Shown here: in pieces, positions 33,019 through 47,720 of the stretch
How positions within the stretch are numbered: the stretch's first letter is position 1
Layout of the letters: each line of letters starts with the position of its first letter
IMG/VR virus record: IMGVR_UViG_3300010042_000201
Span: 1-47,720 of that record
Strand: one strand, 5' to 3'
DNA: 47,720 bases
Origin: a virus
Notes under the pieces: model-generated
Seen by the model: the letters and a program-made list of their open reading frames with translations, nothing else
The model's database searches: none
What the model was told of the DNA's origin: nothing
Translations under genes and position numbers: made by a program

Positions 33019-34893
33019 TTAGCGGTCGGGGGACCAGCCCGGATCGGCCGATTTCTGGTCGAACCGCGGCACGTCGCCGAGCTTCACATCGAGGTAGTGG
33101 ACGAGGCGGCCTTCCTCTTTCTTGTAGCCGAGGCGCCGCAGGGCCTTGCCGAAAGAGGTCTCGTTCCAGGCCTTTAGACCATTGGCCAGGCACCAGTCGT
33201 TATAGGCGATCAGCATGGCCCGAGCCTGCACCTTCTCGCCGGGCGCGGGGATGACGAGCGCGGTGCAGAAGCGCTGCACCGGGTCTTTTTCCTCGCGATA
33301 GGCCTGGGTGAACTTCTTCACCTTGTCGGGGATATGCGCGTCGAGCCCGTCGCGCAGGTAGATCATCAGCCCTTCGATCAGCCAGTTGAGAATGCCGGCG
33401 CGCTCTTCGGCGAGCATGGCCAGCATGTCGTCGAACTGCATGCGCTCGCCCTCTGGAATGGTCACATCCCAGGGCGTGATCAACACACGCCGCCAGATCC
33501 CGTTGTCGCCGCCGCTGATTTCGGGAAGATCATTGCCCGAAAGGATCGGCACGAAGATCGGCCGGAACTCGAAGAACTCCTTTTGCAGGAAGCGGGCCGT
33601 CATCGTGCCGCCACCCGTCACCGCCTTGATCAGGTTTTCGCGCAGCGGCGTGCCCTTGGGCAGTTCTTCGACGACGACATAGCGGGTGTTGAAGAGGCGG
33701 GCGATATCGGGGCTGGCCTGCTGGCCGCCGCGCTGCGCGTCCCCTGTTATAGAATCGGGCGAGACCACGGTGCGGAACGTGCCGGCCATGCCGCCCACCG
33801 TTTCGATATAGACCGATTTGCCGTTGGCGCCCGAGCCCCAGTGATAGATCACCTTCTGCTCGCCATTGCCGCCCATCAGCATGGCATAGCCATCAAAGAC
33901 CTGCAGATAGCGGCGCATCTCCGCTTCGGGCTGCGAGCGCTCGAGGAACTTCATGAATTTGGGGCACGTCGCGTCCGGGTCATAGTCGACCTCGGCGAGC
34001 TTGGTGATCATGTCGGCGCGGTCGTGGTCGGTCACCTCGAGATGGCCGATCTTGCGCGGCGGAATGGGCGTGCCATCAGCCTCTGGCGTCAGGTCCTGCT
34101 CGGGATCGTCGATGCGGCTAAAGCGCAGCGTCTTGTTCCGGCAGTTGAACACCATCTTGTCGCGATCGAGCAGCTCGGCCTCGACGATCTTCTGGCTCGC
34201 CGCCTGGGTCAGCATGGCCGATGTCTTGGCGGCATTGCCGGTGCCGATGGCAAAGCGGATGCGCGCATGGCGCTTTTTTGCCAGCGTGGTTCTGGCCTTG
34301 TCGGCCTTGGCCAGCAGCGCCCGATCGGTTGCCGTCAATTCCTCGATCGGCTTCCGGCTCACGGCCTCGGCCGCGGCGATCAATCGGCCAACACGCGGCG
34401 TGGCGAGGAGAAACAACGCCTCGAGCTTGATGATGTCGACGAGGTCCTGGCCAAGAAGGCGCACATCGAGGTCGCCCTCGTCGCGCTGCCAATGCGTAGC
34501 CTTGAAGGTGATCCAGCCGAGGCCGCGCACATGTCCAACGTCCTGCCCATACCAGCGCATGAAGCGCCGCGCATTGTCGCGGTCGTTTTCGTCGTGTTCA
34601 GAGTTGCCGCGAATAATCTCGACGCGCTCTGGCGACATGCCGAGGATCTGATCATCAAGCCCATCCGTGCCGTCCTCGCCGGGAAAATCGGCTGGGTCGA
34701 AACCCGGATCATCGGGATCATGCGGCGGCAACTCGTCAGGCTGTTCTGGCTCGGCCGGTGCCTTCGGCTTGCGAGCGCCACGCTTCGGTTTTTCGGTCGC
34801 GCCGTTGCCGCCATCGACAACGGTGAGTGTCACCTTCTTGGTTCGCGACGCGGCTTTCTTGACGGGATTGTCGTCGTCGGGTGTATCGGTCAC
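33019..34893 (-). CDS. D5/P4-type phage replicative helicase
   Basis: A GTG at 34893 overlaps the previous stop by three bases (GTGA) and gives 624 residues. The first 85 are acidic and disordered. The C-terminal half is an SF3-type AAA+ helicase: Walker A at 353-360 (G-S-G-A-N-G-K-S), Walker B at 405-410 (R-Y-V-V-V-E-E), sensor near 445 (P-I-L-S-G-N-D), then a DUF5906/D5-type winged end. It would unwind DNA at the phage origin together with the upstream primase. The open frame extends upstream, but only with codons that antiparallel the primase gene. Confidence 0.85.
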   Translation of the reverse strand: MTDTPDDDNPVKKAASRTKKVTLTVVDGGNGATEKPKRGARKPKAPAEPEQPDELPPHDPDDPGFDPADFPGEDGTDGLDDQILGMSPERVEIIRGNSEHDENDRDNARRFMRWYGQDVGHVRGLGWITFKATHWQRDEGDLDVRLLGQDLVDIIKLEALFLLATPRVGRLIAAAEAVSRKPIEELTATDRALLAKADKARTTLAKKRHARIRFAIGTGNAAKTSAMLTQAASQKIVEAELLDRDKMVFNCRNKTLRFSRIDDPEQDLTPEADGTPIPPRKIGHLEVTDHDRADMITKLAEVDYDPDATCPKFMKFLERSQPEAEMRRYLQVFDGYAMLMGGNGEQKVIYHWGSGANGKSVYIETVGGMAGTFRTVVSPDSITGDAQRGGQQASPDIARLFNTRYVVVEELPKGTPLRENLIKAVTGGGTMTARFLQKEFFEFRPIFVPILSGNDLPEISGGDNGIWRRVLITPWDVTIPEGERMQFDDMLAMLAEERAGILNWLIEGLMIYLRDGLDAHIPDKVKKFTQAYREEKDPVQRFCTALVIPAPGEKVQARAMLIAYNDWCLANGLKAWNETSFGKALRRLGYKKEEGRLVHYLDVKLGDVPRFDQKSADPGWSPDR

Positions 34894-36071
34894 AAAATCA
34901 CCCGCACCAGGTCGTTGAGGTCCTTGCCGTCGCCGATAGGTTCGACGAAGGCGCAATCGAGCACCGACAGCGCCGGATTTTCCTGCAGCCGGCGTTCCCG
35001 CCAGGCTTGGGCGCGCATCAGCCCGCGGGTGACCTTTTCGACCGTCCTGGTCGCCGCCTCGTCGCTGTCGCAAAGATAGATCAGCTCCTCGGCCCAGTCG
35101 GGCGGCAGGAAGCAATCCATGTCATCGAGATCGGGCAGGCCGTGCTGGATATGCCCGTCGGCATCGCGCGCGGCGCGGCCGGCCATGTTGCCGAGGTCGA
35201 CGCCCGCCCAATAGGCCGTGTCAGGCTCGAAATTGTGTGCCAGGGCCGTCAGGGTCGTCTCGATCCCCTCGCCCATCACGATGCGCCTGGGCTTTTCGGG
35301 CGTGTAGAGCCGAATGGCGCCGCCCTTTTTGGCCCCGCGCACCTTCTTGGTCGCGATCGGCTTGCCGGTGTCGGGATGGTTGCCCAGCACCACTTTGCCC
35401 TTCGGTTTCTCGACGTCGAGCCAGGTCGCGTGCGACGCCCCAAAATGCCCATCGGGCTGTTGCACGGCCGCGACCATCGCGGGACCGGTATGCACGGTGA
35501 CCCACTGCCCGCCGATGCTTTCGACGAGCGGCAAGTGCGGATGCTCCCAGAGCTTCACGCTAACACCAGGCGGCAGCACGGCGGCGATATGCCCAAAGCC
35601 GATTCCGCGCAGCGCCAGATATTGAGCGAGATAGTCCCTGCCCCGGTTCGCCTTGGCTTCGGAGAAGATCCGGAACCCATCCTTCCGCGCCTGCTCGCGA
35701 TACCGCGCGGCCTCGCCGGCCCGGCGCTGCTCATCGGCCGTGTTCTGCGCCGCAATTTGCCGCGCCCGCTCCGGATCGAGCGGCTCGCTGGCCTTGCGGC
35801 CGGTGATGATCTCGCAGGCGCCAACGAATTGAACATTCTCGGTCTTGATGACGAGGTCGATCACGCCGCCGCCCGTCATGCCGCAGCCGCGGCAGAGAAA
35901 GGTGTTTTTCTTGGTATGGATGGCGAAGCGATCGGTGCCGCCGCACACGGGACACGGCCCGGCGCGATCGACGCCGGGCGCCAGCTTCCAGCCCTTGCGC
36001 TTGGCCCAGGCCTCGCACGTGGTCCGCATCGCCTCATCGCGCAGCGCTTCGAGTTCGGGAGGAAGGCTCAA
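34890..36071 (-). CDS. Zinc-finger/Toprim primase
   Basis: A 393-residue protein starting at TTG 36071 in a TTGA overlap with the previous gene. Residues 40-63 form a zinc finger of primase type (C-P-V-C-G-G-T-D-R-F, then C-R-G-C-G). A central DUF7146-like part follows. The C-terminal half is a Toprim domain (V-M-G-E-G-I-E-T-T-L-T-A near 265, L-I-Y-L-C-D-S-D-E near 340). These make the RNA primers for phage replication. It is the partner of the helicase gene that follows. Confidence 0.85.
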   Translation of the reverse strand: MSLPPELEALRDEAMRTTCEAWAKRKGWKLAPGVDRAGPCPVCGGTDRFAIHTKKNTFLCRGCGMTGGGVIDLVIKTENVQFVGACEIITGRKASEPLDPERARQIAAQNTADEQRRAGEAARYREQARKDGFRIFSEAKANRGRDYLAQYLALRGIGFGHIAAVLPPGVSVKLWEHPHLPLVESIGGQWVTVHTGPAMVAAVQQPDGHFGASHATWLDVEKPKGKVVLGNHPDTGKPIATKKVRGAKKGGAIRLYTPEKPRRIVMGEGIETTLTALAHNFEPDTAYWAGVDLGNMAGRAARDADGHIQHGLPDLDDMDCFLPPDWAEELIYLCDSDEAATRTVEKVTRGLMRAQAWRERRLQENPALSVLDCAFVEPIGDGKDLNDLVRVIL

Positions 36072-36376
36072 TTCGTCTGCCTTCCCTCATAGAGAACTAT
36101 TGATCGGCCGGTGACGCCGCTGGCCCGCTGCTGCGCTACAAGTCGCGGTATCTGCTTTTCAATTTCGCGCATCAGCGACTTGCGTGCCCTCGCATCCTCA
36201 ACACCGGCAACGTGAAAGGCGGCGACGGCGCAAATGGCGCCGATCAGTGCATTGAGCGTTAGTCCGTGCCCCTGGGCTTCGACGATCTTAGAAGCCTCCT
36301 TGATGCCGAGCATGATCACGTCGGCATAGATCTGCGACGAAGGATCGATATCGAGGCGAGCGTCATACTCGGTCAT
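36068..36376 (-). CDS. Phage hypothetical protein, early operon
   Basis: The ATG at 36376 overlaps the previous stop by four bases and gives 102 residues. The middle is a hydrophobic helix (L-I-G-A-I-C-A-V-A-A-F-H-V-A-G), and the ends are charged. No family recognised. Location between small genes and the primase in the replication operon is the only clue. Confidence 0.6.
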   Translation of the reverse strand: MTEYDARLDIDPSSQIYADVIMLGIKEASKIVEAQGHGLTLNALIGAICAVAAFHVAGVEDARARKSLMREIEKQIPRLVAQQRASGVTGRSIVLYEGRQTN

Positions 36377-36681
36377 CGCTTGCACCATTCGACGCACCGA
36401 AACGGCAACATCGGCTCTTCATCGCCACCGTTGGGATCGTCCATCCAGAACCCGAAATGCGGACAGCCTTGGTCATTATGGCGCTGCTCTTCCTCAGGGT
36501 TTTCGCCCTCGTGGAAGCACTCGCAGCCGTCCTCGGTCCACATGCCGAAGGCATTGAGGTAGAAGCCATCGACTTCCTCGATCGCGCTGCCATCGGCGAG
36601 CGAACCGCGCATACGCACGGCGAGGCGCGTGCCTTCGGCGGTCTGCGGCTTCTCGCCGGCAGATTTCCATTCGCCCGTCAT
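36373..36681 (-). CDS. Acidic cysteine-containing hypothetical protein
   Basis: A 102-residue acidic protein with four cysteines, two close together (D-G-C-E-C-F) and two near the end (C-P and C-V-E-W-C). It starts at an ATG in an ATGA overlap with the methyltransferase gene. It may bind a metal. Function unknown. Confidence 0.55.
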   Translation of the reverse strand: MTGEWKSAGEKPQTAEGTRLAVRMRGSLADGSAIEEVDGFYLNAFGMWTEDGCECFHEGENPEEEQRHNDQGCPHFGFWMDDPNGGDEEPMLPFRCVEWCKR

Positions 36682-39314
36682 GCCACTTCTCCCTGTTCCT
36701 GCGCTTCGGTTTCCAGCAAGCCAAACAGGTCAGGCATGGCGACTTCATCAGCCATGGCCTTCACGTATTGGCAGCCGTCGACGAAATAGGCCGGGTTGAG
36801 TTCGACGGCCCGGCCCCGCCGTTTAAGCTTGAGCGCTCGATAGGGCACGCTCATCAGCCCGCCGAACGGGTCGAACACGATCTCGCCCGGTTCGGAATAT
36901 TGGGTGATGCACCGATCGATGATGTCGAACTGCAGCGGGCAAAGGTGCATCTCGCGCCCGGCCTGCGCCTGCAGCGTGTTCATGCTCAACATGCGCGCGA
37001 CGTCGGTCCACACATCATCATGCTTGGAGTGCGGCGGCAGCAGCATGAAGGTCGAGGGCAGCGAGCCAGTCTGCTCCAGCTCCTCCGCGATCGTCACATG
37101 GTGCTGCCAGTCATAGACCGCGTTGAGCTGATAGGCCTTCCACAGTTTGAAAATGACATTGGCGTCGAGCGCGCGGATCTCTTCCCCGGTCAGCAGGCGA
37201 TTGCCCGAGACCGGCATATAGCCATGGGCATCGAGCTGCCAGCGGGCGCGGCTATAGCCATCGTCCGAGGTCCAGCGGCCGTCCTTCCATTCCTTCTTGG
37301 CCTTGGTGACCTTCTGATCGGCATAGCCATCAGAACTGTCCGAGGGCGGCTTGCGGAAGATCAGCAGATATTCGGGCAGGCCATTGCCCATCCGGCTGCC
37401 ATCCTTGCATTGCTCGGTCCAGCCCAGGCGATAGGTCTGGTTATTTTCCCGCACCACGTCCGTCGTGATTGTCTTGCGGGCGAGGAAGGCAAAGCCATGC
37501 CGCTTGAAGGCGGCAATCGTGTCGTCGGAGAAAGGATAGACCGTCTGGAAACCGAGCCCGGTCATGCCGCCCGGCACGATCCGATCTTTGACATGGATGG
37601 CGGCGACCCGGCCGGGTTTGAGCACCCGCAACAGCTGCGGAATGAGAAAGTCCATCTGCGCAAAGAAGTGACCATTGTCGTCGGTATGGCCAAAATCGGC
37701 ATAGTTCGGGGAATACTCATACTGGGTCGAGAACGGGATTGAGGTGACGATCAGGTCGACGCTGTTCTCCGCCATGCCGGCGCATTCGGGCACGCAGTCA
37801 TTGTTGACGAGAACATAGCCCTCGCCGCGCACCTCGACCCGCTCGACGCCCATGGCGCGCGTCAGCGATTGGGCCATAGCGGCCGAGGTCAGACCATACT
37901 CTTTGATGATTGCTGTCATGATCGCCATCTGCTTGTCGTGGCGGCGCCACTTGGCTTCCACGCTGTCGCGGATCGGGCGTTCGGCCTCGGTATAGATGAG
38001 GTCGACGCGGACCGTTTGCGTCTGCAGGAATCGGTAACACCGGTGAATGGCCTGGATCAGGTCGTTGAACTTGAACCCGATGCCAAGGAAGATTTCCCAG
38101 GCGCAATGGCGCTGGAAATTGCTGCCCGAGCCGAGCATCGAGGGCTTGCCCGCCAGCTCGCGGCGGCGCCCATCGGCAAAGTCGGCAAGCAAGGTTTCGC
38201 GCGCATCGAGGTCCTGGCTGCCATAGACCGTGGCAATGCCGGGAATAGCCATCTCGATCGCATGCCGCTCCGCCTCGAGGTCGTGCCAGATGATCCGGTG
38301 CGCTTTCGGGTCGAGCGCCCGAAGCTCGAGCATCTTGCCGACCCGCGCATCGAGGCTATCGCGCTTCTCCCGCGCCGCGTCCGAGAGGCTGGCCGCAGCA
38401 TTGCGCAGCAGCCGCCCCTGCCCGCTCTTTTCCGCCCCGGCCGAGGCATGGTCGGCCGGCAGCTCGTGCCAGTGCACTTCGAGCGGCGGCAGATCATAGC
38501 CCTCGTCGGAAAACCCGAGATCGCTGGGCTTCTGCACGAACAGGCCCCAGCTCGCCACCCACAGCCAGAACTCCCGCTCTTTGTGCGGGTGAATGGTCAG
38601 CTTGTCGGCCTGCTCGCTATTGCGCTTGAAGAACCGGGTCTTGGCCTGGCCAACATCCATCACCTCGAGGAATGCGGAATAGGCCAGCAACTCGATATAT
38701 TCGTTCGGGCTCGGCGTGGCGGTCGCGACGAACTTGTATTCGACGCCATCAAAGAGACGCATGAACTCGCGGAAGGTCTTGGTGCCGCCAAAGCCGCGCA
38801 GGCAGCTCGCCTCGTCGAGGCTGGTGACGGTGAAGGCGCGCGGGTCAAGCTTGCCGTCGCGCACTGTCTCGTAATTGGCGATATAGAGAAAGCCGTCCGC
38901 CGTGCCGTCGATCGTGCGGATGAACTTTAGGCTCGGCACCCGCTCGGGACGCCCCTCCTGCCAGGCGCGCAGCTCTGCCCGCTGCGCATCCGTAATGTTC
39001 GGATGCTCGCCCGTCGCCAGCGTCTTCACATCGGCCATGAATTCGCGGCGCACGCCGAGCGGCGCGACGATCAGCCCCTTGCCACCGAAGCGCGCGACAA
39101 TAATGCGCAGGATCTCAATCTGCACGAAGGTTTTGCCGAGGCCAAAGGCGGCGAACAGCGCTCGTCGCCCACCAAGGCAGGCCCATTGGACCATAGCCCG
39201 CTGATGCGGCTTGAGCAGCGGATTGATCTCATCGTCTTCGACGACGAAACCCGAGACCGGCGCCATGGCCACCTTAGCGGCGAGGAAGTCGGAATAGGAG
39301 AGCAGCTGGGTCAT
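36678..39314 (-). CDS. Helicase-adenine/cytosine-N4 methyltransferase fusion
   Basis: An 878-residue protein from the ATG at 39314 (ATGA overlap). Residues 50-440 are an SF2 helicase: Walker A-like A-F-G-L-G-K-T (56-62), D-E-A-S (167-170), A-T-A-T-P-S (197-202) and Q-A-I-H-R-C-Y-R near 421-428. Residues 515-860 are an amino-methyltransferase of beta order: catalytic T-S-I-P-F-S (524-529), then the target region, then the SAM motif F-D-P-F-G-G (814-819). The usual D-P-P-Y/S-P-P-Y is S-I-P-F here. No restriction subunit is nearby, so it is probably an orphan phage methylase that protects DNA. Confidence 0.85.
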   Translation of the reverse strand: MTQLLSYSDFLAAKVAMAPVSGFVVEDDEINPLLKPHQRAMVQWACLGGRRALFAAFGLGKTFVQIEILRIIVARFGGKGLIVAPLGVRREFMADVKTLATGEHPNITDAQRAELRAWQEGRPERVPSLKFIRTIDGTADGFLYIANYETVRDGKLDPRAFTVTSLDEASCLRGFGGTKTFREFMRLFDGVEYKFVATATPSPNEYIELLAYSAFLEVMDVGQAKTRFFKRNSEQADKLTIHPHKEREFWLWVASWGLFVQKPSDLGFSDEGYDLPPLEVHWHELPADHASAGAEKSGQGRLLRNAAASLSDAAREKRDSLDARVGKMLELRALDPKAHRIIWHDLEAERHAIEMAIPGIATVYGSQDLDARETLLADFADGRRRELAGKPSMLGSGSNFQRHCAWEIFLGIGFKFNDLIQAIHRCYRFLQTQTVRVDLIYTEAERPIRDSVEAKWRRHDKQMAIMTAIIKEYGLTSAAMAQSLTRAMGVERVEVRGEGYVLVNNDCVPECAGMAENSVDLIVTSIPFSTQYEYSPNYADFGHTDDNGHFFAQMDFLIPQLLRVLKPGRVAAIHVKDRIVPGGMTGLGFQTVYPFSDDTIAAFKRHGFAFLARKTITTDVVRENNQTYRLGWTEQCKDGSRMGNGLPEYLLIFRKPPSDSSDGYADQKVTKAKKEWKDGRWTSDDGYSRARWQLDAHGYMPVSGNRLLTGEEIRALDANVIFKLWKAYQLNAVYDWQHHVTIAEELEQTGSLPSTFMLLPPHSKHDDVWTDVARMLSMNTLQAQAGREMHLCPLQFDIIDRCITQYSEPGEIVFDPFGGLMSVPYRALKLKRRGRAVELNPAYFVDGCQYVKAMADEVAMPDLFGLLETEAQEQGEVA

Positions 39315-39955
39315 GCTGCACCGCCAGCGTGTTCGGCCTCGGCCCATCCACCCCACTGGTCTGCCATTGCGTTCGCAACGCCAGGGAAAAATCGGCTGCG
39401 CTCTTTCTGGCGAGCGGGACCGGGCGGCATACGCCACACGCGATGAACGATGACTTCCGGTTTGACAGGATGGGTCGGCACCAGATTTGGCAGACCCTTC
39501 AACCACAGACATGTGCGCTTCGCCTCGCCGTCGCCAAACTGCCACGGCTGGATGGACTGCGAATGCACTTGAAAGTTGGTGATGCGGGCCTTCGCGTGCC
39601 GGTGCATTACCGGGTTCTCGATCGCAATGCGCTCGATTGGCGCATTCCAGCATGCAGAGAACAGGGCGGCGCCTTCATCGAGGTCCTGCCACATCTGCTC
39701 GAGAGTCTTTCCTGACGGCGGCGCAGTGAGCCAACGAACGCCGGAATTGCACAACCGGGTGCAGGGCGGGTGCGCGACCATCAGCAGGTCCCACCCGTCG
39801 CCCAGCAAAGTGCGCACGTCCCCTATGATGTGGCGATTTGAATGGTCTTCTGCCGGTAGCAGATCGCAAGACCAAGCATCATGACCGCGCGCGGCAAAGG
39901 CCCGGCGCACAATCCCGGAAAACTCGCAGGCGACAAGAACGCGAAGTGCTTTCAT
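39311..39955 (-). CDS. Cytosine-methyltransferase-like phage protein
   Basis: A 214-residue protein opening with a SAM-type motif (L-V-A-C-E-F-S-G-I-V-R-R-A-F). It then has H-P-P-C-T (62-66), like the catalytic P-C loop of C5 methylases, and I-E-N-P (112-115), like the ENV motif. It is half the usual length and seems to lack the target-recognition part. Similar short proteins are common in phages and their activity is not established. It lies directly before the helicase-methylase gene. Confidence 0.7.
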   Translation of the reverse strand: MKALRVLVACEFSGIVRRAFAARGHDAWSCDLLPAEDHSNRHIIGDVRTLLGDGWDLLMVAHPPCTRLCNSGVRWLTAPPSGKTLEQMWQDLDEGAALFSACWNAPIERIAIENPVMHRHAKARITNFQVHSQSIQPWQFGDGEAKRTCLWLKGLPNLVPTHPVKPEVIVHRVWRMPPGPARQKERSRFFPGVANAMADQWGGWAEAEHAGGAA

Positions 39956-41312: not shown

Positions 41313-41587
41313 GCCGGCTCACCCACGCGCTTAAGATGATGGGTAAAAAGCGCAAGATCATCGACTTGTTCGATGACTGGCTTGAAGCAACGGGCGCTAA
41401 AGCCCGCGTCGATATCAGGAAATTCCAGATAGAGCGTGCCGTTGCTGACATAAGTTTCGCGGATGAAAAGCACGTCTCCGAATGCCGGAAAATTTGGCTG
41501 AGGCGCGCTGTCATGGCCGGCCGGGAACCAGCTGCCATTCTCGGCAATACAAACACACTTCACGCCCGGCCTGGCCCAGCTGCTCAT
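41309..41587 (-). CDS. Small early hypothetical protein
   Basis: The ATG at 41587 overlaps the stop of the CII-like gene by four bases and gives 92 residues. The sequence has a C-V-C-I-A-E-N-G-S-W beginning and a Y-V-S-N-G-T-L-Y-L-E-F strand. No family is recognised. The longer frame seen upstream is an artefact of the overlapping gene. Confidence 0.55.
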   Translation of the reverse strand: MSSWARPGVKCVCIAENGSWFPAGHDSAPQPNFPAFGDVLFIRETYVSNGTLYLEFPDIDAGFSARCFKPVIEQVDDLALFTHHLKRVGEPA

Positions 41588-42066
41588 TCCCCCGCCTCCA
41601 GCTTGATTTGCTCGGCCAGGGCATGCGCGCTGCGGATAAGCTCGTGCAGCTTGCCGACGATGCGGCGCCCTTCGGCGGGCGATACCTTTCCGTCGCGCAG
41701 CGCCTTGCCGATATCGACCGTCGCCTGCCCGAGATCCTCGGCCATTTCGCCCGTCGCCTTGATGATGCAGCCGGCGCCCGCGCCCTCCGGCAGCGGTATC
41801 AGCACGCAATCGAGCGCGCCGGCGAGATATTCGAGCACCGCAAGGTTGCGGCTCACCTTAGCGAGGTCATAGAGGACATCGGCCGGTATGAAGTCTTTCA
41901 GCTCGGCCGGGTTGGCATAGTCCGACAGCCGCTGCTGGCCGACCCGCGTCACCTTGGCGGCGGCGGTCTGCCCGCGCGAGCCTTCGCCGAACGAGGCATA
42001 GGTCTGCGCCGTCGCCGTCTTGAGCCCGGCATAGAATGCGTCTGATTGTGGCCCGCGCTCTGTCAC
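41584..42066 (-). CDS. CII-like (CP76-type) phage regulator
   Basis: A GTG at 42066 overlaps the preceding stop by three bases (GTGA) and gives 160 residues. The order of helices and the segments V-G-Q-Q-R-L-S-D-Y-A-N-P-A-E and L-A-V-L-E-Y-L-A-G-A-L-D-C-V-L resemble the phage regulatory protein CII family (CP76), a DNA-binding helper of the lysis-lysogeny choice. The C-terminal helix would oligomerise. This is a plausible, not certain, identification. Confidence 0.6.
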   Translation of the reverse strand: MTERGPQSDAFYAGLKTATAQTYASFGEGSRGQTAAAKVTRVGQQRLSDYANPAELKDFIPADVLYDLAKVSRNLAVLEYLAGALDCVLIPLPEGAGAGCIIKATGEMAEDLGQATVDIGKALRDGKVSPAEGRRIVGKLHELIRSAHALAEQIKLEAGE

Positions 42067-42446
42067 GTAAAGGCCTCCGCATTCACGTGATGACAGGCCC
42101 CGCGCTCTGCGCGAAAACCAGCGAAGCGGTTGGCCTGGGCCAGAGCCAGAGCCAGACACACACCAGCCCGGGCGGCGCGATGACCAGATTCCCGAATTAC
42201 CAGCCGAGCCCTGCCCTGCGTGAGGCGATCGAGGCGCTGCGCCACGCACGACAAAAAGACCGGGCCGCGGCCGAAGCCGTCGAGCCCGGCCAGTCGGGAG
42301 GCCCCGGCGCACTGACCCAGACGCCGGGGCGAGAGGACACCGGTACCGGTGCAGCCGAGGGACAAGGCTGCGGGCGCGAGGGGCATCCCGACTTGTCCGA
42401 TACCGATGCCCTCACGTCCGGGCGTGACGATGATGCGTGAGGTCAT
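42063..42446 (-). CDS. Hypothetical protein, early operon (frame ambiguous)
   Basis: A 127-residue frame from the ATG at 42446 with four-base overlaps to both neighbours, which is the main reason to accept it. The protein is rich in Gly, Arg and Cys and has no domain. The plus strand also reads open here (42180-42440) with a more ordinary helical sequence, so the coding strand is not settled. Confidence 0.4.
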   Translation of the reverse strand: MTSRIIVTPGREGIGIGQVGMPLAPAALSLGCTGTGVLSPRRLGQCAGASRLAGLDGFGRGPVFLSCVAQRLDRLTQGRARLVIRESGHRAARAGVCLALALAQANRFAGFRAERGACHHVNAEAFT

Positions 42447-42619
42447 GACGCACCCCGATCGGTGCGCGGCGCTGACATCTGCAGTGTTTTGTAAACCCGG
42501 CGCGCGCCGAGCCCCGAGGAGCGGCCCAGCTCCAGCGGGCTGGCGCCATCGCGATTCATGTCGCGCAGGGCATCGGCCAGGGCGCGGCGCGCGCCGGTGT
42601 TTTGGGCGGGGCGCTTCAT
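42443..42619 (-). CDS. 58-residue basic protein
   Basis: A short frame from the ATG at 42619 with four-base overlaps on both sides. The product begins M-K-R-P-A-Q-N-T-G-A-R-R and has a helix-turn-helix-like middle, S-P-L-E-L-G-R-S-S-G-L-G-A-R-R-V. It may be a small DNA-binding protein. The size and the overlaps support it. Confidence 0.5.
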   Translation of the reverse strand: MKRPAQNTGARRALADALRDMNRDGASPLELGRSSGLGARRVYKTLQMSAPRTDRGAS

Positions 42620-42861
42620 GGCTGGGCCTCGGCAACTACGGGTCGACCGACGCCAGCTGGCCAGCGAACGTTTTCGGGCCAGTTCTCCGAGAACCAGCGC
42701 ATCGCATTCTCGAAGTTGCGAGTGTTGAGATCACCGCCAGAGGCGATGGCACCCAAACGACTGCCCCCGTTGAAAAGCTTCGTGCTCAGCGTGCTCAACG
42801 AAACGCCAGTAGTCTCGCTGTACAAACTTGCGACCGCGATGAGCTGCTCTGTAAGCGACAT
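42616..42861 (-). CDS. Cro-position regulator, first early gene
   Basis: The ATG at 42861 gives 81 residues (M-S-L-T-E-Q-L-I-A-V-A-S-L-Y). The middle, V-S-L-S-T-L-S-T-K-L-F-N-G-G-S-R-L, is a probable helix-turn-helix and the end is W-rich. It is the first gene read from the leftward promoter opposite the repressor, the place of Cro. I recognise a related group of small phage proteins but not a formal family. It may bind the same operators. Confidence 0.6.
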   Translation of the reverse strand: MSLTEQLIAVASLYSETTGVSLSTLSTKLFNGGSRLGAIASGGDLNTRNFENAMRWFSENWPENVRWPAGVGRPVVAEAQP

Positions 42862-42887: not shown

Positions 42888-42918
42888 CTCATAATCGGAT
42901 TTAATTCCGGTTTGTCAA
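42888..42918 (-). promoter_or_regulatory. Leftward early promoter
   Basis: Read leftward, TTGACA (42918-42913) is a perfect -35 element. An AT-rich -10 region follows about 17-19 bases later (ATTATG/TATGAG, 42895-42888). The operator at 42896-42909 fills the spacer, so repressor binding should block it. The first early gene starts about 27 bases further on. Confidence 0.65.
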
Positions 42919-42932
42919 CGGATTTCAATCCG
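42896..42932. promoter_or_regulatory. Repressor operators O1 and O2
   Basis: Two copies of the palindrome lie here: CGGATTTAATTCCG (42896-42909, one mismatch in the arms) and CGGATTTCAATCCG (42919-42932, perfect 6-bp arms), 23 bp apart. They separate the repressor gene from the leftward operon. Identical or near-identical copies occur at 44269-44311. Confidence 0.75.
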
Positions 42933-42958
42933 ATTTTCTGCAGATTGGAGCTAAGGTA

Positions 42959-43729
42959 TTGTTGGGTATGTTGGAATTTGATCCGAACACCCTCGCCGGC
43001 CGCATTGAGCGGCGCCTCAACGCCCTAAATACAAACCCGACCGCAGCCTCGGTTGCGGCCACAGGCAAGCAAGATGCTATTCGGAAGATCTTCGACAAGG
43101 CGAAACGGCATGAGCCATTCTCACCGCGGATGTCCACGCTTCAGGGCCTAGCTCGCGCGCTGAAAACGTCCGTCGCATACCTGACAGACGGCGAAGGCCC
43201 GGAGCATCTGGACGGTGAGAACCACCTTTCGGGAACGCCTATCCCTCATGACGGTCGGAAGCTTCAGTACGCTGGCAGGGTGCAGGCCGGGGCGTTTGTC
43301 GCGACGGATGACTACTTCAACCAGGACTTCGAGGACGTGCCAGATCACGTAAAGCCCGATCCTGCCTATCTAAAGGTTCGCCAGTACGCGTGGCGGTCCT
43401 ACGGAGATTCGATGAACGAGGCAGGCATCCTTGACGGCATGTGGATTGTCGGCGCCGACGCTGGCGATTATTTCGATCAGTACGGGGATATCAAGTCTGA
43501 GGACTTGGTGATCGTCGAGCGCACAAGACATCAGGGCGCGGAACGCGAATTGACTGTGAAGGAAATCCATTACTTCCGGGACCGCTACGAACTGCGCCCT
43601 ATTTCCTCAAACCCCGAGCATCAACCCATCGTTGTGATGCATAACCATGATGTCGACGCGGACGGCACGGAGGTTAGGATCGTTGGAGTAGTGCTTACGG
43701 CTTACGCAAACCTCAGAAAGCGCCGGTGA
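42959..43729 (+). CDS. LexA/CI-type phage repressor (S24 family)
   Basis: A 256-residue protein. Residues about 15-80 form a helix-turn-helix DNA-binding domain (L-Q-G-L-A-R-A-L-K-T-S-V-A-Y-L-T-D). A linker follows, and from about 105 a LexA-like autopeptidase: cleavage site Ala110-Gly111, catalytic Ser151 in G-D-S-M, Lys201 in L-T-V-K-E. It should hold the prophage silent and be cut after RecA activation. TTG 42959 with GGAG upstream and ATG 42968 are both possible starts. The operators O1/O2 lie directly upstream, and the exported protein gene follows after seven bases. Confidence 0.88.
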   Translation: MLGMLEFDPNTLAGRIERRLNALNTNPTAASVAATGKQDAIRKIFDKAKRHEPFSPRMSTLQGLARALKTSVAYLTDGEGPEHLDGENHLSGTPIPHDGRKLQYAGRVQAGAFVATDDYFNQDFEDVPDHVKPDPAYLKVRQYAWRSYGDSMNEAGILDGMWIVGADAGDYFDQYGDIKSEDLVIVERTRHQGAERELTVKEIHYFRDRYELRPISSNPEHQPIVVMHNHDVDADGTEVRIVGVVLTAYANLRKRR

Positions 43730-43736
43730 CCTGGCC

Positions 43737-44267
43737 ATGCTCATTGTCCGCTGCGCCCTACTCGCTTTTTCTTGTCTCTCCGTTGCTTCACCCACAGCCG
43801 CCCAAGGCTTTATCCCCGGCAACGACCTCGACCGGTACGCGACATCCATCGGCCTTGAAGCGATCCCCACCATGGAGGAGATTGCTGCAGGCCTTGCGAC
43901 TGGAGACGAGAGGGCAAAGCTAGGATCATGCTCAATCGCCTCGTACTCTTGGGCGGTTGCCGGAAAAGCAGCCCACACGCTCGCTAATCTCACGGCACAG
44001 AGTGTCGCTCCATATCTAGAGGCCGATGAAGCGAGCAAAAAATCTGCTCAGATCGCGGCGGCCGACGAACTGTCCATAGCATTCGAAAAGTTGACCATGC
44101 TGCGCGGTCTACGAGACCGCGCTTGGCTTTCAATTGCCGAGTGCGATCTGACTGAAGGCCGCGTGGTGCAGGCCGCCGCGCAGCTGCACATGCTTTTCGA
44201 GCACCTTGACCCAGCTGACGGCACAACCTATGAGCGGGCGCTGCGTCTCCAGCAGCAGCTTTACTGA
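43737..44267 (+). CDS. Exported protein co-transcribed with the repressor
   Basis: A 176-residue protein that starts seven bases after the repressor stop. Residues 1-22 are a signal peptide (L-L-A-F-S-C-L-S-V-A-S-P-T-A-A-Q-G), and the mature part is a helical, Ala-rich protein with two cysteines (C-S and E-C-D). No family recognised. Transcription with the repressor means it should be made in the lysogen, so it is a candidate lysogenic-conversion or superinfection-exclusion factor acting outside the cytoplasm. Confidence 0.75.
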   Translation: MLIVRCALLAFSCLSVASPTAAQGFIPGNDLDRYATSIGLEAIPTMEEIAAGLATGDERAKLGSCSIASYSWAVAGKAAHTLANLTAQSVAPYLEADEASKKSAQIAAADELSIAFEKLTMLRGLRDRAWLSIAECDLTEGRVVQAAAQLHMLFEHLDPADGTTYERALRLQQQLY

Positions 44268-44268
44268 T

Positions 44269-44311
44269 CGGATTTAATTCCGACTTCGGATTGACACCGG
44301 ATTTAATTCCG
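44269..44311. promoter_or_regulatory. Repressor operators O3 and O4
   Basis: Two identical copies of CGGATTTAATTCCG lie at 44269-44282 and 44298-44311. A half site CGGATT lies between them (44287-44292). They match O1 exactly and O2 at 12 of 14 positions. O4 lies in the spacer of the rightward promoter for the integration operon. Confidence 0.75.
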
Positions 44312-44320
44312 ATTTAGGTT
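44291..44320 (+). promoter_or_regulatory. Rightward promoter of the integration operon
   Basis: TTGACA (44291-44296) is a perfect -35 element. A 17-base spacer contains operator O4. The -10 region (TTAGGT, 44314-44319) is a poor match. The first gene starts at 44350 behind a GGAGGG ribosome site. Confidence 0.55.
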
Positions 44321-44349
44321 GCCTTCTAGTTTCACCACTGGAGGGCAAC

Positions 44350-44799
44350 ATGCCTCTTTCCCCTGTCTCCCGCGCCCACGCGGTTTCTCATCTCTCCCTG
44401 ATGGCCGCTGAGCCGCCTCGCTCCGTCGCCGAGCGCATGGCCGATATCTTCGTCGCCCGCGACGAGGATGGCCTATCGACCGAGCCGGCCGATCTCTTCC
44501 GCGAAGGCTTTAGCGAGGACGAGATCGCCGCCAATGAACGCGAGGCAACCCAGATCGCCGCCCGCCGCCAGGCCAAGTCCAAGACCCGCGACGTCAACGC
44601 CGCCCCTGAAAAGTCGGTCGAGGACGTCCGCAAGGACATGTCCGACATCATCTCGTCGCTGCTGCCGCCGACCCAGCTGATCGTCGCCGAGCTGCAGGCC
44701 CGCGGCATCCCCCAGAAGCACATCGACCTGTCGCTGGAAAAAGCCCGCGCCATGTCAGCCCACGACTTCGCTCTGGGCCAGACCGGGTGGGCCAACTGA
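44350..44799 (+). CDS. Hypothetical protein, integration operon
   Basis: A 149-residue acidic protein, predicted helical, with a basic middle (about residues 75-85) and a C-terminal helical part (P-P-T-Q-L-I-V-A-E-L-Q-A-R-G-I). No domain recognised. It starts at an ATG with GGAGGG upstream. It is the first gene behind the repressor-controlled rightward promoter, so it is likely silent in the lysogen. Confidence 0.6.
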   Translation: MPLSPVSRAHAVSHLSLMAAEPPRSVAERMADIFVARDEDGLSTEPADLFREGFSEDEIAANEREATQIAARRQAKSKTRDVNAAPEKSVEDVRKDMSDIISSLLPPTQLIVAELQARGIPQKHIDLSLEKARAMSAHDFALGQTGWAN

Positions 44800-45206
44800 T
44801 GGGTGCCGCGGTTAAGCTCGGCCCGAAGCCCAAAACATGGTTTCAGGGGTACACTTCATTCCCAGGCGAGAAACGCCGCGTCTATGAAGGCGACGGTTTT
44901 CGCAATCATCTGGTCGCCTCATTCGAGACCGAGGAAGACGCCGCCGATGCGGTCTCTTTGCACAACGCCGCTCTTGCTGCCGAGGCGGCGCATGCCGCTT
45001 CAACACCCACCACACCCGAGGCGGGATCGGCCTTGACCTACGCCGACCTGATCCGCGCCCTGATCCAGCTCGACGGCTGGAACTATTGCGGTCCCTATGC
45101 CGACCCGGCGCCCGCACCCGAAGGCTTCACCCTCGAAACCCGCGAAGACGGATTCCTCGGCATCCCCGTCCACTATCGCTTTATCCCGAAGGCGGAGGAG
45201 GCATGA
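44799..45206 (+). CDS. Hypothetical protein, integration operon
   Basis: The ATG at 44799 overlaps the previous stop by one base (TGATG) and gives 135 residues. The N-terminal part has W-F-Q-G-Y and an A-F-E-T-E-E-D-A-A-D-A-V-type helix. The second half has aromatic, Pro-rich sequence. No family recognised. Its stop overlaps the next start by four bases. Confidence 0.55.
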   Translation: MGAAVKLGPKPKTWFQGYTSFPGEKRRVYEGDGFRNHLVASFETEEDAADAVSLHNAALAAEAAHAASTPTTPEAGSALTYADLIRALIQLDGWNYCGPYADPAPAPEGFTLETREDGFLGIPVHYRFIPKAEEA

Positions 45207-45562
45207 TGCTGGCGCTCACCCATCCACACACGCCGTCACCTTGGGGCGTTGACGACGAACTCGGCATCTTTGCCGAAACCAGCGGCGCCACTATTTGCCA
45301 GGTGCAGCAGGCCGACGACTTTCCATGCCTTGAAGAAGGCACCGAAGACGACGTGCAGGCCGAGTGCGTGGCCAATGCCTACGTGATCATGATCGCTCCG
45401 GAGACGGCCGCCCTGATCCGCCGGCTGATCAAGTGGGACACCGACTTTCCGGTCAACTCACACAACGGCTACGCCGGGCTCAAGGAGCTGGACAAGATCA
45501 TCGCCGATGGCAAAGCGATCCTCGACAAGGCGGGGATGAAGCACGTCGAGGGAGGCCTCTGA
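45203..45562 (+). CDS. Hypothetical protein, integration operon
   Basis: The ATG at 45203 (ATGA overlap) gives 119 residues. The sequence P-H-T-P-S-P-W-G-V-D-D-E-L-G-I-F-A and A-N-A-Y-V-I-M-I-A-P-E recurs in small phage proteins of unknown function that I associate with dNTP and host-takeover regions. An alpha/beta pattern is visible, but no active site. Confidence 0.6.
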   Translation: MMLALTHPHTPSPWGVDDELGIFAETSGATICQVQQADDFPCLEEGTEDDVQAECVANAYVIMIAPETAALIRRLIKWDTDFPVNSHNGYAGLKELDKIIADGKAILDKAGMKHVEGGL

Positions 45563-45654
45563 TGCACCGCCTCGTTTGCTTCATCGAAAGCGACCTCGCC
45601 CAAGGCGTGATCGGCCTCGTCGTCTTTACCCTCATCCTCGCAGGTATCCGATGA
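45562..45654 (+). CDS. 30-residue single-span microprotein
   Basis: A frame of 31 codons whose ATG overlaps the previous stop by one base (TGATG) and whose stop overlaps the next start by four (ATGA). The product M-H-R-L-V-C-F-I-E-S-D has one hydrophobic span (G-V-I-G-L-V-V-F-T-L-I-L-A-G) with a basic end. The exact junctions on both sides make a chance frame unlikely. It may modulate a membrane target. Confidence 0.55.
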   Translation: MHRLVCFIESDLAQGVIGLVVFTLILAGIR

Positions 45655-46253
45655 AAGTCTTCTGCAAGACCATGCCCTCCGGCCGGAACTTCAACTTCGC
45701 CGACCCCAAGCCGGAAATGATCTGCCTCGACGATATCGTGCACACGCTGGCGCGCACCAATCGCTGGGGCGGCAATATCGAGTGGGTCAGCTTCTCAGTC
45801 GCCCAGCACTCTCTGGTGACCGCCAGCGCCTGCAGGCTGCCTCAGTCCCGCGTCTATGCCTTGCTGCATGATGCCGGCGAAGCCTACATCGGCGACCTGC
45901 CGACGCCTTTCAAGCTCTGGATCGCCGACGCCGGCACCGACATCATCGGCCTCGAGAACCGCATCCTCTTCGATGCGATCTTCCCGGCACTCGGTCTCGC
46001 AAAACCCTCGAGCGAGATCATGGCCGATGTCCACAACGCTGACCAGGTCGCCTTGGCCACCGAGTTCCGCGACGTGGTCAAGGGCCGACACCCCAGCTGG
46101 TCGCCCAAGGCCCCGCCGCTCAAGACCCGCATCAAGTTCCTGCCCCCGGTCAAAGCCGAGGAACAGTTCAAGCTCGCCCTCGAGGGCGCCCTACGGCCCT
46201 ATGGCAAGCTCGACGCGGTTGGCCTGGGCCAGAGCAACAGGGGTGTGGCGTGA
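45651..46253 (+). CDS. HD-domain phosphohydrolase (YfbR-like)
   Basis: The ATG at 45651 (ATGA overlap) gives 200 residues. It has His53, His73-Asp74 in L-L-H-D-A-G-E-A-Y-I-G-D, and Asp131, the set of metal ligands of HD hydrolases. It best fits the YfbR-like group that removes phosphate from deoxynucleoside monophosphates, which a phage could use to control nucleotide pools. It lies in the integration operon, an unusual place. Substrate is not proven. Confidence 0.8.
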   Translation: MKVFCKTMPSGRNFNFADPKPEMICLDDIVHTLARTNRWGGNIEWVSFSVAQHSLVTASACRLPQSRVYALLHDAGEAYIGDLPTPFKLWIADAGTDIIGLENRILFDAIFPALGLAKPSSEIMADVHNADQVALATEFRDVVKGRHPSWSPKAPPLKTRIKFLPPVKAEEQFKLALEGALRPYGKLDAVGLGQSNRGVA

Positions 46254-46336: not shown

Positions 46337-46749
46337 GTGTCGATGCTGCCGACGAGGACGAACCCATGACGCTGGCGGAAGCCTGCCAGCTCATCTTTCG
46401 TAACGCGATCTCGCCCGCTACATTGCGCGCCGAGGCAGGACGCGGCCGGCTAACCATCGAACGGATTGGCCGAAAGGACTTTGTCACTCGCCGCGCCATC
46501 CGGGAGATGCGTAAGAAATGCGAACAGGCACCCGCGCAAAAGGACCCCGCCTCTGGCTCCAGCCCGAGCGCGTCCGTGCCGATGGAAAGGTCGAGCCTGC
46601 TGTCTGGTGCATCCGAGACGATGGCCGATTCAAGCGTAGCACTCGCTTCGGTGTTGATGATCGCCGATCAGCTGAGCGGGAACTCGCTCGATACATCGCG
46701 GCGAACCACGCGGCGCCAAAGCGCCAGAGTGATCCCTCTGAAATCCTGA
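46333..46749 (+). CDS. Excisionase-like DNA-binding protein
   Basis: The ATG at 46333 (ATGA overlap) gives 138 residues. Residues 10-60 are a MerR/excisionase-type winged helix (M-T-L-A-E-A-C-Q-L-I-F, then S-P-A-T-L-R-A-E-A-G-R-G-R-L, then K-D-F-V-T-R). After residue 65 the protein is Ser-rich and low in structure. Its last 232 bases overlap the integrase gene in another frame. It probably directs the integrase to excision. Confidence 0.7.
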   Translation: MSVDAADEDEPMTLAEACQLIFRNAISPATLRAEAGRGRLTIERIGRKDFVTRRAIREMRKKCEQAPAQKDPASGSSPSASVPMERSSLLSGASETMADSSVALASVLMIADQLSGNSLDTSRRTTRRQSARVIPLKS

Positions 46750-47720
46750 TCCTCGACGTCCTCGGCCTCTATGGGCGCGACGTCGCTCCCTCTCATGCTC
46801 GTCCCAAGGAAACCGCCGCACGCATAAAGCGCCTCGCGCTCTGGTGGGGCCAGCCCTTCGTCGCAATGCAGAGCTTCCGTGACCTCGATCGGCCGCTCGA
46901 ACGCATGACCGGCCATGTCAGCGACATTCGATCATCAACCTGCCAGGCCTATGTGGACAACATCGGCAAGGCCCGCACCGCCAGCATGGACCTCGAGCTG
47001 CTGCGCGCCGCGCTCAATCACGCCGTCGCCAACCAACTGCTCGAGCGCACCGTGCCGGTGACGCTGCCGCCCAAATCCATGCCGCGCGAACGCTGGCTGA
47101 CCCGCTCCGAGGTCGCCAAGCTTGTCTGGACCGCCTGGCGCAGCCGGCGCGCGTCGAACGGTGTTTCCGGCGAGGAAGATGACTGGGCCATGCGCAAGCA
47201 TCTGGCCCGCTGGATGATCATGGCGCACTACACTGGCACCCGCAAAGCCGCCATCCTCAATGCCGCCTTTCGCCAGGAGATCGGCCGCGGTTTCATCGAC
47301 CTCGAGGCCGGCCTCTGGCACCGCCGCGGCTCCGGCGTTCGCGCGACAGCCAAGCGCCAGCCGCCCGTGCCGCTGCCGGCGCCGCTGCTCGGCCATCTAC
47401 GCCGCTGGAAAAAGAACGGCCAGACCTATGCCGTAGAGTTCGGCGGCAAGCCGATCGCCAGCATCGACAAAGCCTTCCGCAACCTGGTGCGCGATTGCGA
47501 GCTGCCGGGTGAAGTCATCCCCCACACCTTCCGCCACACGGCCATCACCTGGGGCATGCAGCGTGGCATGGACCCCTGGGACGCTGCCGGCTATTTCGGC
47601 ATCAATCTGCAGACATTGCTTGAGGTGTACGGGCATCATCATCCAGAGCATCTGCGCGATGCGGCGGCGAAGATGGCACGACCAAAAAAGGTATCTGGGT
47701 CCGTGCATAGCACGCGCTAA
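46518..47720 (+). CDS. int: Phage tyrosine integrase
   Basis: A 400-residue tyrosine recombinase, complete to its stop at the last base. It starts with a short arm-type segment (G-P-R-L-W-L-Q-P), then a core-binding domain, then the catalytic domain: Arg242 in T-G-T-R, a Lys near 279, H-T-F-R-H (336-340) and Tyr371 in E-V-Y-G-H-H-H. GGAG lies 11 bases before the start ATG. It catalyses integration and excision at att sites. The right site should lie just beyond the window. The operon gives it a promoter under repressor control. Confidence 0.93.
   Translation: MRTGTRAKGPRLWLQPERVRADGKVEPAVWCIRDDGRFKRSTRFGVDDRRSAERELARYIAANHAAPKRQSDPSEILILDVLGLYGRDVAPSHARPKETAARIKRLALWWGQPFVAMQSFRDLDRPLERMTGHVSDIRSSTCQAYVDNIGKARTASMDLELLRAALNHAVANQLLERTVPVTLPPKSMPRERWLTRSEVAKLVWTAWRSRRASNGVSGEEDDWAMRKHLARWMIMAHYTGTRKAAILNAAFRQEIGRGFIDLEAGLWHRRGSGVRATAKRQPPVPLPAPLLGHLRRWKKNGQTYAVEFGGKPIASIDKAFRNLVRDCELPGEVIPHTFRHTAITWGMQRGMDPWDAAGYFGINLQTLLEVYGHHHPEHLRDAAAKMARPKKVSGSVHSTR

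Follow-up and report, generated by a model that had tools for sequence, protein, structure and literature searches.

The repressor region and its paired palindromes

The window, by which we mean the entire 47,720-bp stretch analysed here, is a virus contig from IMG/VR (IMGVR_UViG_3300010042_000201), and it has no repeats at its ends. Two sets of genes diverge around a prophage repressor (Table 1). The leftward arm starts with a small gene in the position of Cro, followed by an ORF for a CII-like activator and a set of replication-type genes; beyond the primases, the terminase, portal, head and tail genes lie on the same strand. The fused methyltransferase/helicase of this arm is 76% identical over 865 residues to a protein of Rhizobium phage RR1-A. 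The rightward arm runs from the gene at 44350 through small genes and a 5'-nucleotidase-type HD protein to a tyrosine integrase. The product of its first gene has a conserved C-terminal GQTGWAN and weakly matches a PHROG of virion proteins.

Table 1. Coordinates of the features discussed in the text
Feature	Position	Strand	Description
Replication-type genes	33019..39653	-	Methyltransferase/helicase 36678-39653; primase 34890-36071; primase/helicase 33019-35115
CII-like transcriptional activator ORF	41584..42312	-	Match over residues 112-236; true start uncertain
First leftward gene, Cro position	42616..42861	-	Small helical protein, PHROG 7669
Leftward early promoter, predicted (lambda pR equivalent)	42891..42918	-	TTGACA 42918-42913, 16-nt spacer, GATTAT 42896-42891
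Operator A	42896..42909		CGGATTTAATTCCG; -35/-10 spacer site of leftward promoter
Operator B	42919..42932		CGGATTTCAATCCG; adjoins leftward -35 and candidate repressor promoter, upstream of both
Candidate repressor promoter (pRM equivalent)	42934..42962	+	Weak -35 TTTTCT, TATTGT 42957-42962; predicted from sequence
Prophage repressor	42968..43729	+	253 aa; S24/LexA-type C-terminal domain; A107-G108, S148, K198
Possible weak third operator	42972..42985		TGGAATTTGATCCG; 2 mismatches; within first repressor codons
Exported protein, cargo slot between repressor and right operators	43737..44267	+	Signal-like N-terminus by eye
Operator C	44269..44282		CGGATTTAATTCCG
Rightward early promoter, predicted (lambda pL equivalent)	44291..44320	+	TTGACA 44291-44296, spacer 18, TAGGTT 44315-44320
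Operator D	44298..44311		CGGATTTAATTCCG; spacer site of rightward promoter
Inverted repeat over Shine-Dalgarno	44318..44349	+	GGAGG 44340-44344; 5' arm 44318-44330, mostly before predicted +1
First right-operon gene (lambda N position)	44350..44799	+	No assigned function
HD-family deoxyribonucleoside 5'-monophosphatase	45651..46253	+
Tyrosine integrase	46518..47720	+	Final gene, reaches contig end

On alignment with LexA the Ala-Gly cleavage site and the catalytic Ser and Lys of the repressor match, and the S24 domain is present. Pfam detects no helix-turn-helix in its N-terminus, and the structure model places five helices there at a confidence (mean pLDDT 55) too low for a structure search. 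A scan of bacterial genome contigs with the repressor recovered no prophage relatives, and 385 genomes of one alphaproteobacterial class yielded no repressor match, an emptiness that is uninformative as this search had no positive control. The Cro-position gene is conserved (78%), its product giving no HMM match and no significant match to a solved structure; the exported protein has no family match.

A 14-bp palindrome occurs four times in the record, each time in the repressor region and nowhere else. The original prediction of two pairs, made up of three copies of CGGATTTAATTCCG and one of CGGATTTCAATCCG, is borne out at every position. The underlying pattern, CGGAWTNNAWTCCG, is thus present four times, whereas 300 dinucleotide shuffles gave 0.037 copies on average and never more than one. 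The window has two clear sites per side; a possible weak third site is kept in all three related phages, its bases being at the same time coding. We rejected a generic genomic repeat as an explanation of the motif: some unrelated genomes have the pair pattern in quantity, but at loci without the repressor and early genes of the window. One such genome, a Thiotrichaceae MAG (JAABRD01 contigs; L025, L026, L030, L043, L097), has arrays of CGGAWTNNAWTCCG at spacings of about 22 bp or longer on many contigs, and these are unrelated to the window phage.

Each pair sits at a predicted promoter, with TTGACA between the two sites and one site occupying the -35/-10 spacer. A consensus scan found the leftward promoter independently, as TTGACA-16-GATTAT with 10 of 12 matches; read on the minus strand, operator B is followed by TTGACA, 3 nt and operator A, at whose last base GATTAT begins. 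On the plus strand operator C is followed by 8 nt, TTGACA, 1 nt, operator D and TAGGTT, a weak -10 with three of six matches; this rightward promoter was placed from seven aligned phages, with a predicted +1 at about 44328. The sites thus fill the spacer on both sides, as had been proposed, but TTGACA does not directly abut the spacer operator on either: at the left it abuts the upstream site (42919-42932) and stands 3 nt from the spacer site, and at the right it is separated from the spacer site by 1 nt. The candidate repressor promoter has its TATTGT just five bases 5' of the repressor ATG (42957-42970), which suggests a nearly leaderless repressor mRNA, predicted to resemble that from lambda pRM.

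Conservation of the layout among related phages

Two close relatives, G001 (IMG/VR 3300024046_000015) and G002 (IMG/VR 3300020144_000015), encode repressors 75-77% identical to that of the window. Either complete record contains the motif four times and no more, again as two pairs in the matching positions: the left-pair spacing, start to start, is 23 bp in all three phages and that of the right pair is 28 or 29 bp. The leftward -35 and -10 are identical in both relatives, and the TATTGT and its 24-nt distance from operator B are likewise kept. Over the aligned DNA around the operators, the identity of the window to G002 is no more than about 70%.

In the searched phages whose repressors are more distant, the motif is absent. 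Sinorhizobium phage phi3LM21 and Rhizobium phage RHph_N28_2, whose repressors are distant relatives (32-37% identity), resemble the window in having repeated palindromes of their own on both sides of the repressor, and phi3LM21 also in having Cro-like and replication genes at the left and an integrase at the right. Their operators differ from those of the window, being TGGATTTnnAAATCCA-like and CGTACAnnnnTGTACG-like, respectively; these were found by a repeat search, the palindrome-cluster script having returned no operators. Four further phages, L168 (also G003), L169, L171 and L172, were reached via the leader pattern of the right operon (described below), and their palindromes all differ: TTTCCnnnnnGGAAA, a CCCAnnTTGGG-like sequence, GTTGCGnnnnnCGCAAC and TAGCCnnnnnGGCTA, respectively. 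These palindromes occupy the corresponding places, and at both promoters the sites have a TTG-type -35 between them (the -35 of L169 being poor), and on the left side of L168 and L172 there are three sites, as in lambda oR. All four of these phages match helix-turn-helix families both in the repressor, which in three of them has an S24 domain, and in the product of the Cro-position gene. Two other matches to the leader pattern, L178 from the alphaproteobacterial class and L176 from a virus, were set aside as chance sites.

The slot between the repressor and the right operators has a different gene from phage to phage: by eye, its product is an exported protein, a lipoprotein or a membrane protein in the window, G001, L168, L169 and L172, and the slot is empty in G002 and L171. 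These genes are predicted candidates for superinfection exclusion or lysogenic conversion.

The best support for regarding the palindromes as the repressors' own sites is that palindrome and repressor change together while the layout stays constant. The sites, where they lie and how well they are kept, together with the order of the genes and the residues for cleavage, all read from the sequence, make it very probable that the four palindromes are the operators of the adjacent S24 (LexA/CI-type) repressor and that it silences both early operons in a lambda-like manner. Of the original claim of such dual silencing, the anatomy and its conservation in three related phages (one operator sequence, both divergent promoters, an S24 repressor) are upheld, and the silencing itself stays a prediction. 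The left, oR-like pair would control the promoter for the Cro-like, CII-like and replication genes, and the right, oL-like pair the promoter for early genes ending in the integrase. At one site of each pair the bound repressor would cover the -35/-10 spacer and keep RNA polymerase out; cooperative binding is probable at the second site, which lies immediately upstream of the -35. Operator B also adjoins the weak repressor promoter, where it could serve to activate the repressor's own transcription. Upon DNA damage, RecA-stimulated self-cleavage of the repressor would release both operons together.

The leader of the right operon and the downstream integrase

In all seven phages aligned here the repressor operon's last gene reaches the right operators, overlaps them or stops no more than about 20 bp short of them, leaving no room for a terminator; in the window the gap between the end of the cargo gene (44267) and operator C (44269) is 1 bp, with no terminator-like site in it. 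Downstream of these operators lies an inverted repeat that covers the Shine-Dalgarno of the first early gene. It is common to the window, L014/L140, L005, L168, L169, L171 and L172, which between them have at least five operator specificities, and its loop, TTTCAnCA, is conserved. A stem including GGAGG folds in all seven (-20.8 kcal/mol in the window, z -6.4), and 90.7% of the cells of the leader alignment pair, as against 36-53% when it is slid.

When the weak -10 elements are aligned by eye, the predicted +1 falls 21-22 nt ahead of the ATG, on the A of a conserved AG. Most of the 5' arm is then located between the predicted -10 and this +1, and therefore mainly read-through RNA of the lysogenic operon could form the stem. 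Opening the Shine-Dalgarno is computed to cost 3.7-7.5 kcal/mol in the predicted own transcript versus 10.7-16.1 in read-through RNA, values that depend on the exact +1, the own-transcript cost becoming 6.5-9.7 if transcription starts two bases earlier. It was the opening free energy that separated the two kinds of transcript; the probability of an unpaired Shine-Dalgarno did not.

The repeat could quite well be a by-product, in that a pyrimidine stretch pairs with any purine-rich Shine-Dalgarno, or else be a DNA site or a target of an antiterminator or RNase. Its covariation is no better than that of shuffles (209/500), as there is hardly any variation in the 3' arm; the loop sequence too is conserved, for which a plain lock has no need; and Rfam holds no known RNA family that matches the leader. 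Against this, the outer stem exceeds pyrimidine-purine pairing in the window, L169, L171 and L172, the left promoters of these phages are without a pyrimidine tract, and the rise in opening cost in read-through RNA (4.6-12.4 kcal/mol) is above all 49 control sites in six of the seven phages. These last observations are consistent with a translational lock standing in for a terminator, which we put forward tentatively, with rather more doubt than trust, because the +1 is a predicted one and the pyrimidine-rich stretch pairs easily with the Shine-Dalgarno. The lysogenic operon would run into the integrase-side operon without a terminator, and the stem would hide the Shine-Dalgarno of its first gene, from which early-promoter transcripts, starting inside the 5' arm, would escape. 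The stem would then also form the right-hand boundary of an exchangeable immunity cassette, with at least five operator specificities set upon one leader.

Hairpins at the ribosome-binding sites of IS10 transposase and T4 gene e protect against read-through: there too long transcripts would hide the Shine-Dalgarno and the short ones from the gene's own promoter expose it, whereas the hairpin predicted here would guard the early operon of a prophage.

Between the right sites and the integrase there are 2.2 kb, and the integrase closes a row of about seven genes; for this reason the term 'integrase operon' goes beyond what is directly seen. It is conceivable, if on balance unlikely, that the right pair governs only the first small early genes and that the integrase has a promoter of its own, CII-activated or overlapping att, in which case the repressor would be without direct control over integration. 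This would accord with the distance and the several intervening genes, the presence of a CII-like gene, the pI promoter of lambda (PMC5300877) and the common autoregulation of integrases (PMC2951348). But the genes from 44350 to 45654 are close-packed on one strand, and in the window and G001, as well as in G002 judging by ORF order, the integrase closes the arm in that orientation; both controls may moreover coexist, as in lambda. Transcription of the integrase from the right promoter is the reading that we favour.

Comparison with the immunity regions of lambda and phage 16-3

It is very improbable that the palindromes serve the Cro-like protein in the first place, the repressor binding them secondarily or elsewhere: the Cro-like gene is conserved as well, and CI and Cro share operators in lambda, but sites are also present on the far side of the repressor, and the covariation of palindrome, repressor and Cro-like protein in the other phages, which does not fully separate the two proteins, makes shared sites likelier. 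Taking the palindromes as operators of the repressor, the region compares with the oR/pR, cI-rexAB and oL/pL of lambda in several respects: a repressor gene with divergent early promoters on its two sides, each carrying operators, one of them in the -35/-10 spacer; a gene in the Cro position, a CII-like ORF and replication-type genes on one arm and an integrase ending the other; and an accessory gene between the repressor and the far operators, where lambda has rexAB. The slot also recalls hex of phage 434, which is made from the repressor mRNA (PMC3564112).

The control of integrase by the repressor had been regarded as unusual. This is not supported: lambda int and xis are expressed from pL, which is shut off by CI (PMC5300877; PMC2951348), and the plan recurs in the four phages with other palindromes.

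The window differs from lambda in its operator sequence and repressor branch, and in having two clear sites per side as opposed to three. It also has no room for a terminator such as t-imm, which in lambda lies between rexB and oL (PMC3640518), and has in its stead the inverted repeat over the Shine-Dalgarno. A t-imm-like terminator is not a defining trait of the wider class, and hence its absence lowers only the identity with lambda itself. If the lock is real, it would be another answer to the problem of silencing integration genes that face the repressor transcript. Rhizobium phage 16-3, an alphaproteobacterial temperate phage, is likewise described as having two pairs of repressor operators, oL1, oL2, oR1 and oR2 (PMC12429752).

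The window offers a directly testable repressor-operator pair in an uncultured phage group. As the layout is the same as in lambda, it is a new example of a known lambda-like design with a new operator sequence: the immunity region of this group follows the lambda plan and is no departure from it.
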